This document shows, piece by piece, positions 2,130 to 12,308 of a DNA stretch of 64,000 nt (positions within the stretch are counted from its first letter, which is position 1; every line of letters starts with the position of its first letter). The stretch is from assembly GCF_016446285.1 (NCBI RefSeq), contig NZ_CP054140.1, positions 787,501 through 851,500 of the forward strand. The letters run 5' to 3'. Below the pieces are notes generated by a model, which saw nothing but the letters and a program-made list of their open reading frames with translations, was not told where the DNA came from and did not search any database. A program made the translations under genes and the position numbers. Origin of the DNA: Desulfobulbus oligotrophicus (GTDB taxonomy: Bacteria; Desulfobacterota; Desulfobulbia; Desulfobulbales; Desulfobulbaceae).

Positions 2130-2324
2130 TTATTGGAGGATACCGTTAGACGGCTGCATCATGAGAGAAGTCTGGGCATCGGCGCTGTCCATGGAGGCCT
2201 TAATTGCCGCATGGAGGAGATCAACGGTCAGGTCATCGGGGTGCCGCTGGAGACGGGTTGCGAGATACAACAGGTTTTCCAGCGTCTCTCCTGACAGTTC
2301 AAGGGTGATCTGTGCTGTTTTCAT
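2130..2324 (-). CDS. Small hypothetical protein (64 aa), ribbon-helix-helix-like
   Basis: Encodes 64 residues starting MKTAQITLELSGETLENLLYL. The short beta-like segment followed by two helices (LENLLYLATRLQ, VDLLHAAIKASM) is reminiscent of small ribbon-helix-helix DNA-binding proteins, but no family is recognised. Start at 2324 chosen for a strong AGGAGGAGAG Shine-Dalgarno about eight bases upstream; the frame extends to an upstream ATG at 2363 that lacks such a site. Isolated between the feo and mut operons. Could be an antitoxin-like protein without a toxin or a chance frame; the ribosome site is the main support. Confidence 0.45.
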   Translation of the reverse strand: MKTAQITLELSGETLENLLYLATRLQRHPDDLTVDLLHAAIKASMDSADAQTSLMMQPSNGILQ

Positions 2325-2600
2325 GCTCTCTCCTCCTGTGCACTCTTTTGCACAGTACATCATTGTGCTGGAATCTCTTCGCAGTCTGTCTTTTCAAATG
2401 CTCTTCATTATCCTGTTCAAGGACGGCACTGTTTTCCAGGTCAATTAAATGAGCCCTGGTAACCTTCCGGCCATACAACTGACAAGGTGCTCCGTCGGCA
2501 AACAGAGACACCCGGAGTAACATGGCAACACATACAATTATCAGGCACAGAAAAGTTACCGGGACTTCATTTAAAGGACAAATCAATGCGATGGCACTGC

Positions 2601-3740
2601 TCAGACTTTACACTCGAACACGGCGATCAGTTGCTGCACCGCCGCCACCGCCGGCAGTTCGCCATCAGCCACGCTGCGTTCGACATCCTTAATGATACGG
2701 TTGACCTCCGGATGCCTGGCAAAAACCGAACGCAGGTGGTCATCCACCATCTCATGGACCCATTTGATATTCTGTTCCTTGCGGTGGCGTTCAAACACAC
2801 CGGACTTACCCGTGATATCACGGTATTTACGGATCACTTTCCAGATCTCGTCAATGCCCTCATTGGTCACGGACGAACAGGTGTAGGCATGTGAAACCCA
2901 GCCCTCGGTGGAGGGTTGCAGGTAATGCAGAGCACGCTCGTATTCAGCCCGTGCGGTCTGGGCGATCAGCTTGTTCTTGCCGTCGGCCTTGGTGATCACC
3001 AGGGCGTCAGCCAACTCCATGATCCCCTTCTTGATGCCCTGTAACTCATCACCGGCACCGGCCAGCATCAGCAGCAGAAAAAAATCGACCATGGACCGGA
3101 CCGTGGTCTCACTCTGCCCCACACCAACGGTTTCGATCAGGACCACATCGAATCCGGCAGCCTCACAGACCAGCATGGTTTCACGGGTTTTACGCGCCAC
3201 TCCACCTAAGGTGACACCGGCAGGTGATGGACGAATAAAACAACGCTCTTCCTTGCTCAACCGCTCCATACGGGTTTTATCGCCGAGAATCGAGCCACCG
3301 GAAATGGAGCTGGATGGATCCACCGCCAGCACCGCCACCTTGTGTCCCTGTTCAACCAGATGACAACCAAAGGTCTCAATAAAGGTCGATTTGCCCACGC
3401 CAGGCACACCGGTGATACCCACCCGGAGAGAGTTACCGGTGTGGGGCAGGAGGATTTTCAACACCTCCTGAGCCTTTTCGATATGCTGTGCCGCATTGCT
3501 CTCTACCAGGGTGATGGCCCGGCCGAGCACGGCCAGATCACCGCGCAGCACGCCCTCGGCATACTGCTCGGCATCAAGCTGCGGGCGACGATGACGAACA
3601 GCGATTTTACTCCCTTTTCCCGTGCCATTGTAGGTGCTGATCCCATCATGACCCGCTTCCACCCCATCCATTACTCGGCAGGCAAACCCTTCACAGTTAC
3701 CCTCCGGAGCCCACTCCGGCATTTTGGTGTTCGATGTCAT
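2601..3740 (-). CDS. meaB: Methylmalonyl-CoA mutase-associated GTPase MeaB
   Basis: G3E/SIMIBI-class GTPase that gates B12 loading and protects or repairs methylmalonyl-CoA mutase. Walker A GVPGVGKST at residues 111-119, followed by AVDPSSSISGGSILGDKTRM and the conserved RPSPAGVTLGGVARKTRE, VVLIETVGVGQSE and ITKADG motifs. At 379 residues it is about 50 longer than typical MeaB because of an N-terminal extension (MTSNTKMPEWAPEGNCEGFA and on) before the usual domain starts near residue 52. Third gene of the mutA-mutB-meaB operon, 80 bases after mutB, with an AAGGAG site seven bases before the ATG. The intergenic stretch can form a hairpin (AAAAGGG and CCCTTTT arms), which may tune expression. 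Confidence 0.93.
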   Translation of the reverse strand: MTSNTKMPEWAPEGNCEGFACRVMDGVEAGHDGISTYNGTGKGSKIAVRHRRPQLDAEQYAEGVLRGDLAVLGRAITLVESNAAQHIEKAQEVLKILLPHTGNSLRVGITGVPGVGKSTFIETFGCHLVEQGHKVAVLAVDPSSSISGGSILGDKTRMERLSKEERCFIRPSPAGVTLGGVARKTRETMLVCEAAGFDVVLIETVGVGQSETTVRSMVDFFLLLMLAGAGDELQGIKKGIMELADALVITKADGKNKLIAQTARAEYERALHYLQPSTEGWVSHAYTCSSVTNEGIDEIWKVIRKYRDITGKSGVFERHRKEQNIKWVHEMVDDHLRSVFARHPEVNRIIKDVERSVADGELPAVAAVQQLIAVFECKV

Positions 3741-3820: not shown

Positions 3821-5997
<2,177 letters not shown>

Positions 5998-6001
<4 letters not shown>

Positions 6002-8133
6002 GCGATCACCTCCAGATGTTTTTGCAGTTTGGTGAGCAGCTCCAGGGCATTGACACGAACATGGAGGAACTCATCCACGCCTGCCTCCTTAAAAGCATCC
6101 ACATGTTCTTTAGGGAATCCCGCAAGGATGATCATGATGTGGGGATCAGCAGCTTTCAGCTGTTGCGCCAGTGCAGGGACAATATCCGGATACGTGGCAT
6201 CAGTGGAACAGATGACCACGGCTTTAGCTCCAGAATCGAGTGTAGCCTTGGCTGCCTCGTCAACGGTGCCAAAGCCGTTGTTGCCGATGGTCTCAAAACC
6301 GCCGACATTGAAAAAGGCGGTGGAAAAATCAGCTCGGGCTTTGTGCTGGGGAATGGGCCCCATATTGGCCAAAAAGAGCTTGGGAACGATGCCGGTACGG
6401 GCCGTGTAATCCTCGGTGGCACGACGGATCTTTTCAAAGGGTTCGGCACCGCGATGGATGTTGAGCGGTTGAACGGCGATCTCCCCGGCCTCTTTCTGCA
6501 GAGCACCGGCCACCATACCCAAGGTGGCTCCCCGGCGGGCAGCCTTGATGGTCTGGGCCATAACTGTACTGTCAAGAGTGGAGCGACATTCGCGGATGGC
6601 TGTCAGGGCCGCAGCGCAGGCCTGGTCGTCGATACTGCCCGCATGGGCCTTGAGCGCCTGTGTCCTTTTCTCGCGGAACCCCTGATGATCAAAAGGCTCG
6701 GCCAGTTGGCGTTTCTCCTGCAAATTCGGATACATGTTGGTGCCGACGAACCGGTCAGTGCGCGTGGCAACGTTTTTCGCTCGCTGTGCCGCTGTCTCAG
6801 CCACCCCTTCCTGTGGCATCCCCTTCTCAAGTGCAGCCAGCATGCCGCCGGCTGCCTCGATATCCTGGAACAGCTTCCAGGCCTTCTCGGCCAACTGGGC
6901 GGTTATCTTCTCCACATACCAGCAGCCGCCGGCCGGATCGATCACCTTATCGAAATGGCCCTCATCTTTGAGCACGATCTGCACATTGCGGGCAATACGA
7001 CGGGAAAACTCGTTGGGTGTGCGGAAGATCTCATCAAAAGGCCCGACGTGCATGCTGTCGACACCACCGGCAATGCCGGAAAAAGCTTCAGTGGAAACGC
7101 GCAGCATATTTACCCAGGGGTCCACCTCGGTCTTGTTCCACGTGGCTGTACGGGCATGAACATACATCTTCTGAGCCTCGGCATTACCACCGAAGGAGTC
7201 GATTACCTGGGCCCAGACCATTCGTGCAGCGCGGAACTTGGCAATTTCCATAAAGAAGTCATTGCCGATTGCAAACTCAAAGTTCATGCGCACCGCAATA
7301 TCGTTGATGCCAAGTCCGCGTTCAAGCAGGGCGCGGATGTAGGCCACTCCGGTGGCCAGGGCATAGGCAATATCCTGCACAGCATTACCGCCGCTGTTAC
7401 GGTAATCTTCCGTGCCAACGGTGATTGTACGCACTTTAGGGGCATGCTCCATGGCCCACAGGGTGAGTTGCGCCATCCGGTCGTAGGCCTCGGCCGAAGA
7501 ACAGGGCAGCTTTCCCGCAACGGCCAGTACACCCAGGGGATCAACCACCAGCGAACCCTCAAGATCAGCAGGCGACTGTCCCTGGTCCTCAATCAGGGCA
7601 ACAACCAGTGCTGTCTGGGCTATCCCCGTGGCACCGCAGGTGATCCTGCAGGGGTGGGCGGTCAGGTCGATACCCTCCAGGGCAACTTTGGCGTCACTCA
7701 GACTTGCAAGCGACAGGCCATCCTTGCCGACCATCTCCGCCGGAGCCTGATCCGGGTCATATCCATTTAAGGTAGCCTGGTCGAACACGATGTTAAGGCT
7801 GTTCTGGCCCCGGGTGAGATCATACCTGGCGGCACGATTGAACTCTTCGGGATCGGGCTGGGTAATCTCCTGGGCAATGTGCCAGGCATTGACCCTGGGG
7901 CCTGAAGCCGTGGTACCACGCATGTAGGGCGCCTCACCGGGCAGGGTATCGACCAGGGGCAGACCGTCGAGGTCGTGGATGAAGTACATCGGCTGAATGT
8001 CAATGCCTTCGTAGGTTTTTTTGACCAAAGTCTTGTCAAAGGACTTGCCCTTCAACTGCTTTTCCACCTCTGCCAGCCACTCGGCATGGGTGTTGGCCGG
8101 AAAATCTTTAAGAATGTCCAATGCTGTTCCCAT
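5998..8133 (-). CDS. mutA: Methylmalonyl-CoA mutase, small (non-catalytic) subunit
   Basis: 711-residue partner of MutB in the heterodimeric mutase. It keeps the barrel ([19 protein letters not shown]-like region and [19 protein letters not shown]) and the flavodoxin-like C-terminal domain, but the B12 motif is degenerate: [13 protein letters not shown] stands where MutB has QDGHDRGAK, so it should not bind cobalamin, as in known small subunits. ATG at 8133 has an AAGGAG site at the right distance. Transcription must pass two cobalamin aptamers and two intrinsic terminators upstream (8159-8777), so the operon appears to be under direct B12 control. Confidence 0.96.
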
Positions 8134-8158
8134 TTTTACTCCTTGTCATTTGGTTAAC

Positions 8159-8190
8159 AAAAAACCCCCGACCCTTTCGGGCCGGGGGTT
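8159..8190 (-). terminator. Intrinsic terminator between cobalamin riboswitch A and mutA
   Basis: Read leftward: an eight-base AACCCCCG/CGGGGGTT outer stem with an inner GGG/CCC helix and four-base loop, followed directly by six T. It ends only about 25 bases before the mutA start and leaves the mutA Shine-Dalgarno free, so it is placed to act as the expression platform of the aptamer at 8288-8441. Confidence 0.85.
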
Positions 8191-8287
8191 CCCCTGTCTC
8201 TGCACCGCTGATAACACGCAGGCCTCGAACCTGCACAGTGCTGGGATCAACAACGGGAACCACGGCCGCTTACGCTGATCAAAAAAA

Positions 8288-8441
8288 CCGGCAGGTCTTC
8301 TGGCTTTCGGATCACCCTACTCTCCACGTCTTCCCGATCAAATCGACCAGTGACATAAGGCGGATTTCGTCCCCGATTACAGCGGCCGGACCGCGACGGA
8401 CTTGCACCGTCTTCCCTGTTAGGCCATTACAATGGCACCGA
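8288..8441 (-). promoter_or_regulatory. Cobalamin riboswitch A (mutA-proximal)
   Basis: Read on the minus strand it has the ordered conserved blocks of the adenosylcobalamin aptamer: GGGAAGACGGTGCAAGTCCG, GCCGCTGTAATCGGGGACGA, TATGTCACTGG, GGGAAGACG, and the 3' B12 box AGCCAGAAGACCTGCCGG. About 100 bases, with a GCAGG/CCTGC hairpin, separate it from the terminator at 8159-8190. No clear promoter is visible between it and the upstream riboswitch B, so both are probably on one leader RNA. Whether ligand turns the operon on or off cannot be decided by eye. Confidence 0.92.
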
Positions 8442-8529
8442 TTTTTTCTTCTAAAACAACGAGTTAAAACCGAACTACCTGACTACATCGGACCAGCATT
8501 CCCCCAATATCTTCCATGAAAAAACGACA

Positions 8530-8568
8530 AAAAAAATCCCCGGATCAATATAGATTGATCCGGGGATG
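8530..8568 (-). terminator. Intrinsic terminator after cobalamin riboswitch B
   Basis: Fourteen-base perfect stem (8537-8550 with 8555-8568; ATCCCCGGATCAAT and its complement), four-base loop and seven T on the minus strand. A very strong terminator about 60 bases downstream of aptamer B and upstream of aptamer A. Confidence 0.92.
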
Positions 8569-8627
8569 CCCTGGTTTATCCACGTATCGGTGCCCTCCCT
8601 GGTCCAGGGGGAAAGCGCTGTCATCTT

Positions 8628-8777
8628 TCAGGCAGGTCTTCTGACTCTCGGATCATCCTACTGACTGCGCCTTCCCAGCCTTTTAGCCAGTGACATTGTG
8701 CAGCGTTCGTCCCCGAATACAGCGGCGGGCCCGTCTCCGATTCACACGGAGTTCCCTTTTATCCTTACGGAACCTGA
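8628..8777 (-). promoter_or_regulatory. Cobalamin riboswitch B (mutA-distal)
   Basis: Second complete aptamer on the minus strand: GGGAACTCCGTGTGAATCGG, GCCGCTGTATTCGGGGACGA, AATGTCACTGGC, GGGAAGGCG and B12 box AGTCAGAAGACCTGCCTG. It has its own terminator (8530-8568) but no gene between it and riboswitch A. Its sequence differs enough from A outside the conserved blocks that the two are not a fresh duplication. Confidence 0.92.
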
Positions 8778-8800
8778 AGATGGTACAACAGAATACCGAC

Positions 8801-8829
8801 ACTAAAACGAAATCGATCATGACTGTCAA
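8801..8829 (-). promoter_or_regulatory. Sigma70-type promoter for the tandem riboswitch-mut operon leader
   Basis: Perfect -35 TTGACA (8829-8824), 17-base spacer and -10 TTTAGT (8806-8801, 4 of 6) reading leftward, placing the transcript start roughly 15-20 bases before aptamer B. Confidence 0.6.
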
Positions 8830-8919
8830 GATAAAAAACTGAAGGATGCGATGTAATCATGCATGCATTGCACCTCCTCCTGTACAGTAACAACACATCA
8901 GGCAACGCCTTTTTTAGTG

Positions 8920-8948
8920 TTGACCATAAACTGAAAACACAATATATA
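8920..8948 (+). promoter_or_regulatory. Sigma70-type promoter for the nrdDG leader
   Basis: -35 TTGACC (8920-8925), 17-base spacer, -10 TATATA (8943-8948). Start expected near 8955, immediately before the nrdD cobalamin aptamer. It is divergent from the mut promoter, about 90 bases away. Confidence 0.65.
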
Positions 8949-8955
8949 GTGGTCA

Positions 8956-9127
8956 AGCGGTTCCTCCTGTCCTGAGAGCCAGGAGGAGAATAGGGAATCC
9001 GGTGCAAATCCGGAACTGTCGCGCAGCGGTAATCAGGAACGAACATTGTCAAAGACACTGGTCAGTTGACCGGGAAGTGACAACCAGTAGGTTCCCCAAT
9101 CGCCTGAAAGTCCGAAGACCTGCCGTG
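8956..9127 (+). promoter_or_regulatory. Cobalamin riboswitch C upstream of nrdDG
   Basis: Aptamer blocks in order: GGTTCCTCCTG with its complement CAGGAGGAG, GGGAATCCGGTGCAAATCCG, GCGCAGCGGTAATCAGGAACG, GGGAAGTGACA, and the B12 box AAGTCCGAAGACCTGCCG. It precedes the B12-independent anaerobic ribonucleotide reductase, the classical logic for a B12-repressed gene when a B12-dependent reductase is also present. No terminator follows; a hairpin at 9133-9156 (CAGCCG/CGGCTG) and one over the Shine-Dalgarno suggest control of translation. Confidence 0.9.
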
Positions 9128-9165
9128 AAACCACAGCCGCACATGCAACGGCTGTCACCTGCACC

Positions 9166-9186
9166 CTCTTGCCTCGCGTCAAGGAG
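9166..9186 (+). promoter_or_regulatory. Possible ribosome-site-sequestering hairpin of nrdD
   Basis: CTCTTG (9166-9171) can pair with CAAgGAG (9180-9186, one bulged G), covering the AAGGAG Shine-Dalgarno of nrdD. This would be the translational expression platform of riboswitch C. Seen by eye only; no folding energy computed. Confidence 0.45.
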
Positions 9187-9192
9187 AGAGCC

Positions 9193-12014: not shown

Positions 12015-12090
12015 ATCCGGCCTCTTATGAAGATTTTCGCTACAATATACTTCTTGACTTTCGGAGAAAACGGTCTAAACAAACCCTATT

Positions 12091-12246
12091 CTCAGGTGCT
12101 CCCAGGAGCTCAAAAGGGAACTCCGTGCGAATCGGAGACAGGCCCACTGCTGTAACCGGGGACGAAATCCGTACCATGTCACTGACCACAAGGTTGGGAA
12201 GACTCGGCAAGTAGAACGATCCGGAAGTCAGAAGACCTGCCTGAAG
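12091..12246 (+). promoter_or_regulatory. Cobalamin riboswitch D upstream of the btuF-cbiZ/btuB operon
   Basis: Complete aptamer: GGGAACTCCGTGCGAATCGG, CCACTGCTGTAACCGGGGAC, CATGTCACTGACCAC, GGGAAGACTCGG and the B12 box AGTCAGAAGACCTGCCTG. A possible promoter with -35 TTGACT near 12053 precedes it. It controls corrinoid uptake genes through the terminator at 12309-12348, the standard B12-feedback arrangement. Confidence 0.93.
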
Positions 12247-12308
12247 AACTGAGCATCTGCTTCGTGGACGGAGGCACGCTCGCATCATACCCACGGGTAA
12301 AAAGGGAC

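Follow-up and report, generated by a model that had tools for sequence, protein, structure and literature searches.

The methylmalonyl-CoA mutase operon mutA-mutB-meaB of Desulfobulbus oligotrophicus is preceded by a series of two complete corrinoid riboswitches, both of which are followed by an intrinsic terminator; we consider it probable that both function as OFF switches. The operon is located on the minus strand of a 64,000-nt stretch of contig NZ_CP054140.1 (positions 787,501 to 851,500; hereafter the window, in whose numbering positions are given unless another locus is named). Its leader is a tandem doublet: one riboswitch class occurs twice, each copy has an expression platform of its own, and neither a gene nor a promoter was found between them, the promoter as judged by consensus scan only. 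The distal unit, which is transcribed first, is designated B and the proximal unit A.

An Rfam covariance search (cmscan) of the whole window matched both aptamers on the minus strand to RF00174 over the complete model (1-189), with 105.1 bits (E 2.9e-25) for aptamer B at 8792-8614 and 122.5 bits (E 2.9e-30) for aptamer A at 8457-8273, both of which exceed the gathering score of 31.5. The terminator of unit B (8529-8567) consists of a 14-pair stem, formed by a hairpin at 8567-8536, followed by seven T, and that of unit A (8159-8190) contains a hairpin at 8181-8167 within a longer stem at 8190-8163. A sigma-70-like promoter was located 5' of aptamer B (8801-8829), with TTGACA at 8829-8824 and TTTAGT at 8806-8801 separated by 17 nt. 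It was detected only by a lax scan, since the strict scan accepts a -10 element only with A as its second base. Consensus scanning found TTGACA with a weak -10 element ahead of the first aptamer in 9 of 13 leaders; in the G014 leader TTGACA is visible and no -10 element was listed. The spacer from B to A is 156 nt in the window, where a gene of ordinary size would not fit and a very short open reading frame (ORF) could. Terminator A ends 25 nt before the start codon of mutA, whose Shine-Dalgarno sequence AAGGAG is at 8139-8144. NCBIfam models bore out the identities of all three genes. The small subunit gene mutA (5998-8133) had TIGR00642 as its best model, although MutA scored below the equivalog cut-off of that model (491.6 against 617.25 bits), and TIGR00641 was above its cut-off. 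It is followed by mutB, for the catalytic subunit (3821-6001; NF006944, 1256 bits), and meaB, for the mutase chaperone GTPase (2601-3740; NF006958, 498 bits). An earlier note, made from the sequence alone, had described the two complete aptamers, a terminator after each, the TTGACA promoter, the absence of a gene between the aptamers and the three genes downstream, and all of these were borne out. The same note had set down beforehand, as the case against itself, a promoter that would divide B and A into separate units; none was found in 10 spacers by a lax consensus scan, which other promoter types would escape.

Of the 23 genomes in the genus, 10 encode a MutA orthologue (E <= 1e-150), and a sample of 193 from the order yielded 13. 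The comparison of leaders in relatives that the earlier note had called for revealed that the doublet is kept: two serial aptamers precede mutA in eight of the nine intact leaders of the genus, the ninth (G018) having a single aptamer, and also in D. rhabdoformis DSM 8777. The G009 leader was left out as not intact, its contig starting 23 nt before aptamer A. In G156, which belongs to another genus of the family, two aptamers lie 539 nt apart, and one aptamer each was found at mutA of G132 and G052 on that strand of the 1.5 kb fetched. None of three more distant MutA loci had an aptamer within 1.5 kb. Within one genome, A and B are 61-68% identical (10 genomes), whereas across genomes the mean identity is 76% among A units (minimum 67%) and 77% among B units (minimum 65%). 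A and B therefore look like two old, separately kept units, and the same values led us to reject the idea that one had recently been copied from the other. This long separate maintenance, together with differences between A and B in L5 and in their expression platforms, would suit two gates that differ in corrinoid selectivity or affinity, and thus serve as two inputs or two thresholds instead of being redundant, a reading we regard as rather unlikely. Doublets also precede TonB-receptor-like genes in at least four genomes (G010, G011, G019 and G022; loci L041-L044), with the targets confirmed by Pfam in G011 and G019, so series gating recurs in the genus. In a pattern test, three of these four doublets had no T6 tract at their proximal unit.

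The expression platform of unit A begins with hairpin P13 (8245-8280, minus strand; GAUCAGC...CGGCCGUGGUUCCCG...GUUGAUC), which starts right after P1 and can be recognised in each of the 14 mutA leaders examined. Its loop, L13, is complementary to L5 of the aptamer; UCCGGCC of L5 and GGCCG of L13 would form a kissing loop through CGGCC. Inspected by eye, these two loops differ in step in G013 (L5 CUUGGCC, L13 GGCCAG), G132 (L5 UCCCGCC, L13 GGCG(A)GGA) and G052, which represent few independent changes. The 3' side of P13 contains GGUUCCC (8255-8261), the 5' arm of a putative antiterminator whose 3' arm, GGGGAACC (8187-8194), overlaps the 5' arm of terminator A. Both arms are invariant in eight of eight sequences (the seven Desulfobulbus mutA leaders with a terminator, plus an orphan copy from G016), and the linker between them has a mean identity of 44%. 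When transcripts of unit A were cut ahead of the 3' arm of the terminator, the antiterminator was favored over P13 in six of the seven leaders (by 9.9, 4.8, 7.4, 4.7, 6.0 and 8.3 kcal/mol), and the two tied in that of G009. Once the terminator was whole, the combination of P13 and terminator won in all seven, by 3.5-7.0 kcal/mol. These nearest-neighbour energies take no account of the kissing loop or of kinetics. G132, G052 and G156 were left out of this test; their leaders have a terminator, but the letters of the antiterminator differ.

P13 and the terminator of unit A do not overlap, and the mutual exclusion seen in the cobT-type layout is thus absent. Because P13 is compatible with the terminator and competes instead with an antiterminator helix, unit A would be an OFF switch; by its anatomy, it has the repressing layout of the metE riboswitch of P. 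megaterium. In the latter, that layout was proven by compensatory mutants (Procknow et al. 2023, PMC10653944). According to the parts of that study compared here, the antiterminator outweighs P13 without the kissing loop, as it does, one tie apart, in our truncated transcripts, but the target of the metE switch is a B12-independent enzyme. A pattern for the A-type P13 was present at mutA in nine of the 10 MutA genomes (the G013 variant was missed) and once as the G016 orphan; the remaining hits look like chance, yet the forward and reverse total exceeds the reversed-pattern control. The orphan (L077, contig C81, 1-380) has both antiterminator arms and the terminator intact and no mutA behind it.

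Unit B contains two candidate L13 hairpins, H1 and H2, and its L5 is nearly invariant, which leaves no covariation to read. H1 (8596-8613, minus strand; loop CCUGGACC) lies immediately 3' of aptamer B and is the probable P13. By eye, its stem varies with compensation across orthologues, and its L13-type motif is weaker than the CGNGGA common in the other switches listed. The 3' strand of H2 (8564-8581, minus strand; GGAU-AAACCAGGGC-AUCC) overlaps the 5' arm of terminator B, and H2 could be either an antiterminator or an activating P13. The combination of H2 and terminator was found in nine of 10 mutA-B units, in none of 14 mutA-A units and in 25 of 30 other cobalamin switches from the loci compared, the last being a non-random set, with many loci chosen for tandem or divergent pairs, which tells against leaning on that count. 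Switches with the B-type pattern front genes for TonB-type receptors, btuF/cbiZ and ExbB in this genome, and cbiK in G021; the cbiK switch of this genome (L001) has no H2 pattern. Since B shares its platform with uptake switches, for which repression is sensible, and since the same sign would be expected of all switches that have this platform, OFF appears the likeliest sign for B, although it is less sure than that of A. An antiterminator made of the aptamer strand CCGGGGA and the terminator arm occurred in some folds; it is mismatched in G001 and D. rhabdoformis and is not claimed here. By eye, GGUCC in the conserved spacer 3' of terminator B could pair with the H1 loop in the leaders of clade 1, G011 showing one mismatch, and the same inspection did not reveal this pairing in G012, G021 and G013.

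If H2 were a ligand-stabilised P13 that excludes the terminator, B would activate while A represses, and mutAB would be expressed only within a band of corrinoid concentrations. The 10-nt loop of H2 carries GGGC, which can form four consecutive pairs with GCCC of L5, and AUCC of its 3' strand is the start of terminator B. In both its loop length and its overlap with the terminator, H2 thus resembles P13 of the A. halodurans cobT switch, the only known activating corrinoid riboswitch, for which the part of the source compared gives L5 GCCCG, a 10-base L13 and a P13 overlapping the terminator (PMC10653944). B differs from cobT in also having a separate P13-like hairpin, H1, at the usual place directly 3' of P1, and the H2 pattern also fronts uptake and synthesis genes, for which activation by B12 would be hard to justify. 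We consider such a band-pass arrangement quite improbable.

If both units repress, as we prefer, transcription would begin at the single promoter, and RNA polymerase would reach gate B first and gate A second. With adenosylcobalamin (AdoCbl), the presumed ligand, bound, the L5-L13 kissing loop would hold P13, the antiterminator would be blocked and transcription would stop. In unit A, bound ligand would thus keep P13 and lead to termination, while in its absence GGUUCCC from the 3' side of P13 would pair with the 5' arm of the terminator. Without ligand, the polymerase would clear both gates and proceed into mutA-mutB-meaB. The net effect would be multiplicative repression, a tight shut-off, with steepness moderately raised. 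For two independent equal gates, fold repression multiplies (26-fold each gives 676-fold), and the ligand span from 90 to 10% expression shrinks from 81-fold to 41-57-fold for two gates, or about 43-fold if they are equal; these figures are arithmetic. Of the explanations offered in the earlier note, a steeper gate fits best and agrees with how such doublets have been read in print, but by this arithmetic the gain lies chiefly in depth, and the gain in steepness is modest.

The genome also has a second mutase operon, composed of an epimerase gene, a single-gene mcm and meaB2. No RF00174 match was found within 200 kb of this operon in this genome, and no cobalamin riboswitch was found in the flanks of the second mutase from eight genomes (this one included), flanks that were short (328 nt upstream in G003), such that a switch farther up a longer operon is possible elsewhere. 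The mcm gene occurred in 11 of the 13 MutAB genomes and in all seven tested genomes without MutAB; it was missing in G013 (74% complete) and G018 (99% complete). MutAB is therefore usually an accessory isoenzyme, and the apparent paradox of a B12-dependent target softens, as most MutAB genomes have another mutase, with no cobalamin riboswitch in the flanks covered. OFF control would make MutAB the low-B12 mutase: MutAB-MeaB may be an accessory mutase for scarce B12, with the second mutase, apparently free of cobalamin control by riboswitch, serving when B12 is plentiful. The premise of the earlier note, that ordinary OFF control would shut the mutase when its cofactor is plentiful, is weakened by this second operon and also by a precedent. 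The mutA riboswitch of Veillonella parvula is one of 38 that repressed a GFP reporter in B. subtilis upon corrinoid addition (Kennedy et al. 2022, PMC9600662), so OFF-type control of mutA is not unprecedented. It is likewise a cobalamin riboswitch ahead of mutA, of the repressing, promiscuous type, but it comes from another phylum and is treated as single in the parts of that paper that were compared.

That both units are ON switches, one of the options in the earlier note, would be physiologically simple, as the B12-dependent mutase would be made when its cofactor is present, and one activating corrinoid riboswitch does exist (PMC10653944, as far as that source was compared). This option is disfavored by the repressing layout of A, whose P13 and terminator are compatible and whose alternative helix is an antiterminator, by the platform that B has in common with uptake genes and by the repressing V. 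parvula switch (PMC9600662, with the same proviso). We hold a pair of ON switches to be very improbable. B12-sensing small RNAs are found in other bacteria (EutX/Rli55), and the strong terminator B would release a discrete RNA of about 280 nt, but B has the same platform as other leaders of the genus, and it is hardly credible that its main role is to supply a terminated, B12-responsive small RNA that acts elsewhere.

Besides the make-up of the comparison set mentioned above, several observations weigh against reading both units as OFF switches. Unit A lacks a terminator in four of the 14 compared mutA leaders (G012, G013, G018 and G021) when the sequences themselves are read; a crude T6 test flags G018 and G021 too, but through the T run of P1. 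In 11 Desulfobulbus leaders, P13 of unit A could pair with the start region of mutA, with duplex energies of -19 to -29 kcal/mol that shuffles matched in 0-30% of trials, and the strongest pairing with the start codon was in G012 (-29 kcal/mol, 0 of 200 shuffles). Folds of truncated unit B disagree between orthologues, two of the 10 (G012 and G156) having been cut at the wrong T run, and the overlap of H2 with the terminator recalls P13 in the sole activating corrinoid riboswitch known. The isoenzyme rationale is also not general, since G018, which is 99% complete, has no second mutase. The pairing between P13 and the start region shows no coevolution, because the P13 strands of clade 1 bind the starts of clade 2 at least as well as their own; a translational role for it is conceivable. 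Sequestration of the mutA Shine-Dalgarno sequence by P13, which would give a translational ON switch in leaders that have no terminator, is not claimed here, as between 98 and 1267 of 2000 shuffles attained the energy; P13 pairs more strongly with the start-codon region. In the leaders of G021, G018, G012 and G013 (L050, L051, L049 and L052), unit A retains P13 and L13 despite having no terminator.

The mutA leader belongs to a published kind of tandem AdoCbl riboswitch. Such pairs were termed pseudo-cooperative by Sherlock et al. (2022, PMC9481103), whose count of AdoCbl doublets is 26; as here, these are two complete riboswitches of the same class, with their own platforms, upstream of one gene. 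Their target genes are unnamed in the parts of that paper compared, whereas the Desulfobulbus doublet precedes genes for a B12-dependent mutase and has two unlike platforms. The tandem of SAM-I and AdoCbl riboswitches on metE, a NOR gate described in the same source as far as it was compared, also consists of two serial OFF gates, but it responds to two ligands and has a B12-independent target. The present case adds to the known doublets its target, the unlike platforms of A and B and the absence of the A terminator in some lineages. Neither the phrase 'tandem cobalamin riboswitch' nor this Desulfobulbus leader was found in the literature searched, which mostly did not extend to subscription journals and is no proof of absence.

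In total, this genome has 10 RF00174 matches. A third aptamer in the window (8941-9141, plus strand) faces nrdDG, and a fourth (12077-12258, plus strand) faces a btuF/cbiZ-type gene. Three cobalamin riboswitches are thus packed into about 1 kb (8134-9190), two directed to mutAB and one divergent, and four into 4 kb when that at 12077 is included. The genome has one class II B12-dependent NrdJ, which makes the nrdDG switch a classical isoenzyme case. With no T6 tract behind it and an end about 50 nt before the likely nrdD start, the nrdDG riboswitch is probably translational.

At the 3' end of the operon, outside the leader interval (8159-8829) treated in the earlier note, we identified an undescribed structured RNA of about 115 nt (2449-2566, minus strand; models R1 and R2), which is more novel than the riboswitch doublet. 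It lies 3' of meaB and before a 64-aa ORF (2130-2324, minus strand), which has no Pfam family and is conserved in 10 of the 23 genus genomes, and feoA-feoA-feoB. The RNA features a long covarying stem, a large conserved internal loop with UUGCCAUGU and a hairpin with a GUUUGCC loop. The window copy scored 48.2 bits with R1 and 90.6 bits with R2, being itself one of the sequences from which R2, and not R1, was built. Further copies were located in L082 (297-414), L087 (1465-1577), L091 (1464-1576), L092-L095 and L053 (5914-6040). No Rfam match was found at 2482-2530 of the window or on six other copies (E up to 2).

A first sequence pattern of this RNA was present in six of the 23 genus genomes, with no hits of reversed-pattern controls, and the RNA model gave 18 hits in 12 of the 193 genomes of the order. 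For 12 of the 18 hits, a cobalamin riboswitch aptamer among the riboswitch matches listed lies 137-341 nt upstream; five hits are found shortly 3' of meaB, and one (G067, outside the genus) is weak. A longer model added a copy 3' of meaB in G009 and a D. rhabdoformis match cut by the locus end; across 297 genomes of the phylum only two Desulfobulbus genomes matched this model, under strict filters that miss the shorter type. All seven terminator-bearing Desulfobulbus mut operons have the structured RNA, and G052 and G132 had no model hit. In the hairpin, 96.6% of the cells were paired and nine of 12 pairs changed on both sides (15 distinct rows, among them that of the weak G067 hit and two partial matches on the opposite strand). 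Over the full 115 nt, 92.3% were paired and 23 of 38 pairs had double changes (10 rows). None of 500 shuffles reached these values, the alignments being fitted to the models and biased towards them. The gene after the RNA is cbiK, which encodes a cobalt chelatase, in four of four tested loci (G021, G004, G009 and G010). It is the 64-aa ORF in the window, in G015 and, by position, in other mut operons, and is not evident in G016 or at the second copy in G000. In G012 (L049 5018-6124, minus strand), three serial cobalamin riboswitches precede mutA, with the structured RNA after the most distal one. In G016, the contig starts inside the orphan A-type aptamer and the structured RNA follows directly 3', an arrangement suggestive of a loss of mutAB-meaB from between the two. 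The mutAB-meaB operon would thus be bracketed by RNAs of the B12 regulon, and we tentatively suggest that the 3' RNA may represent a new class of cis-regulatory element of the cobalt/B12 regulon, possibly a cobalt or tetrapyrrole riboswitch, although the odds are somewhat against it.

The doublet is a clean natural example, conserved among relatives, of serial riboswitches that presumably share a ligand; the switching helices of its gate A can be written down, and the structured RNA motif is a concrete new target for study. For the biology of these organisms, the arrangement suggests that B12 riboswitches may choose between two cofactor-dependent isoenzymes, and not just between a dependent and an independent one.
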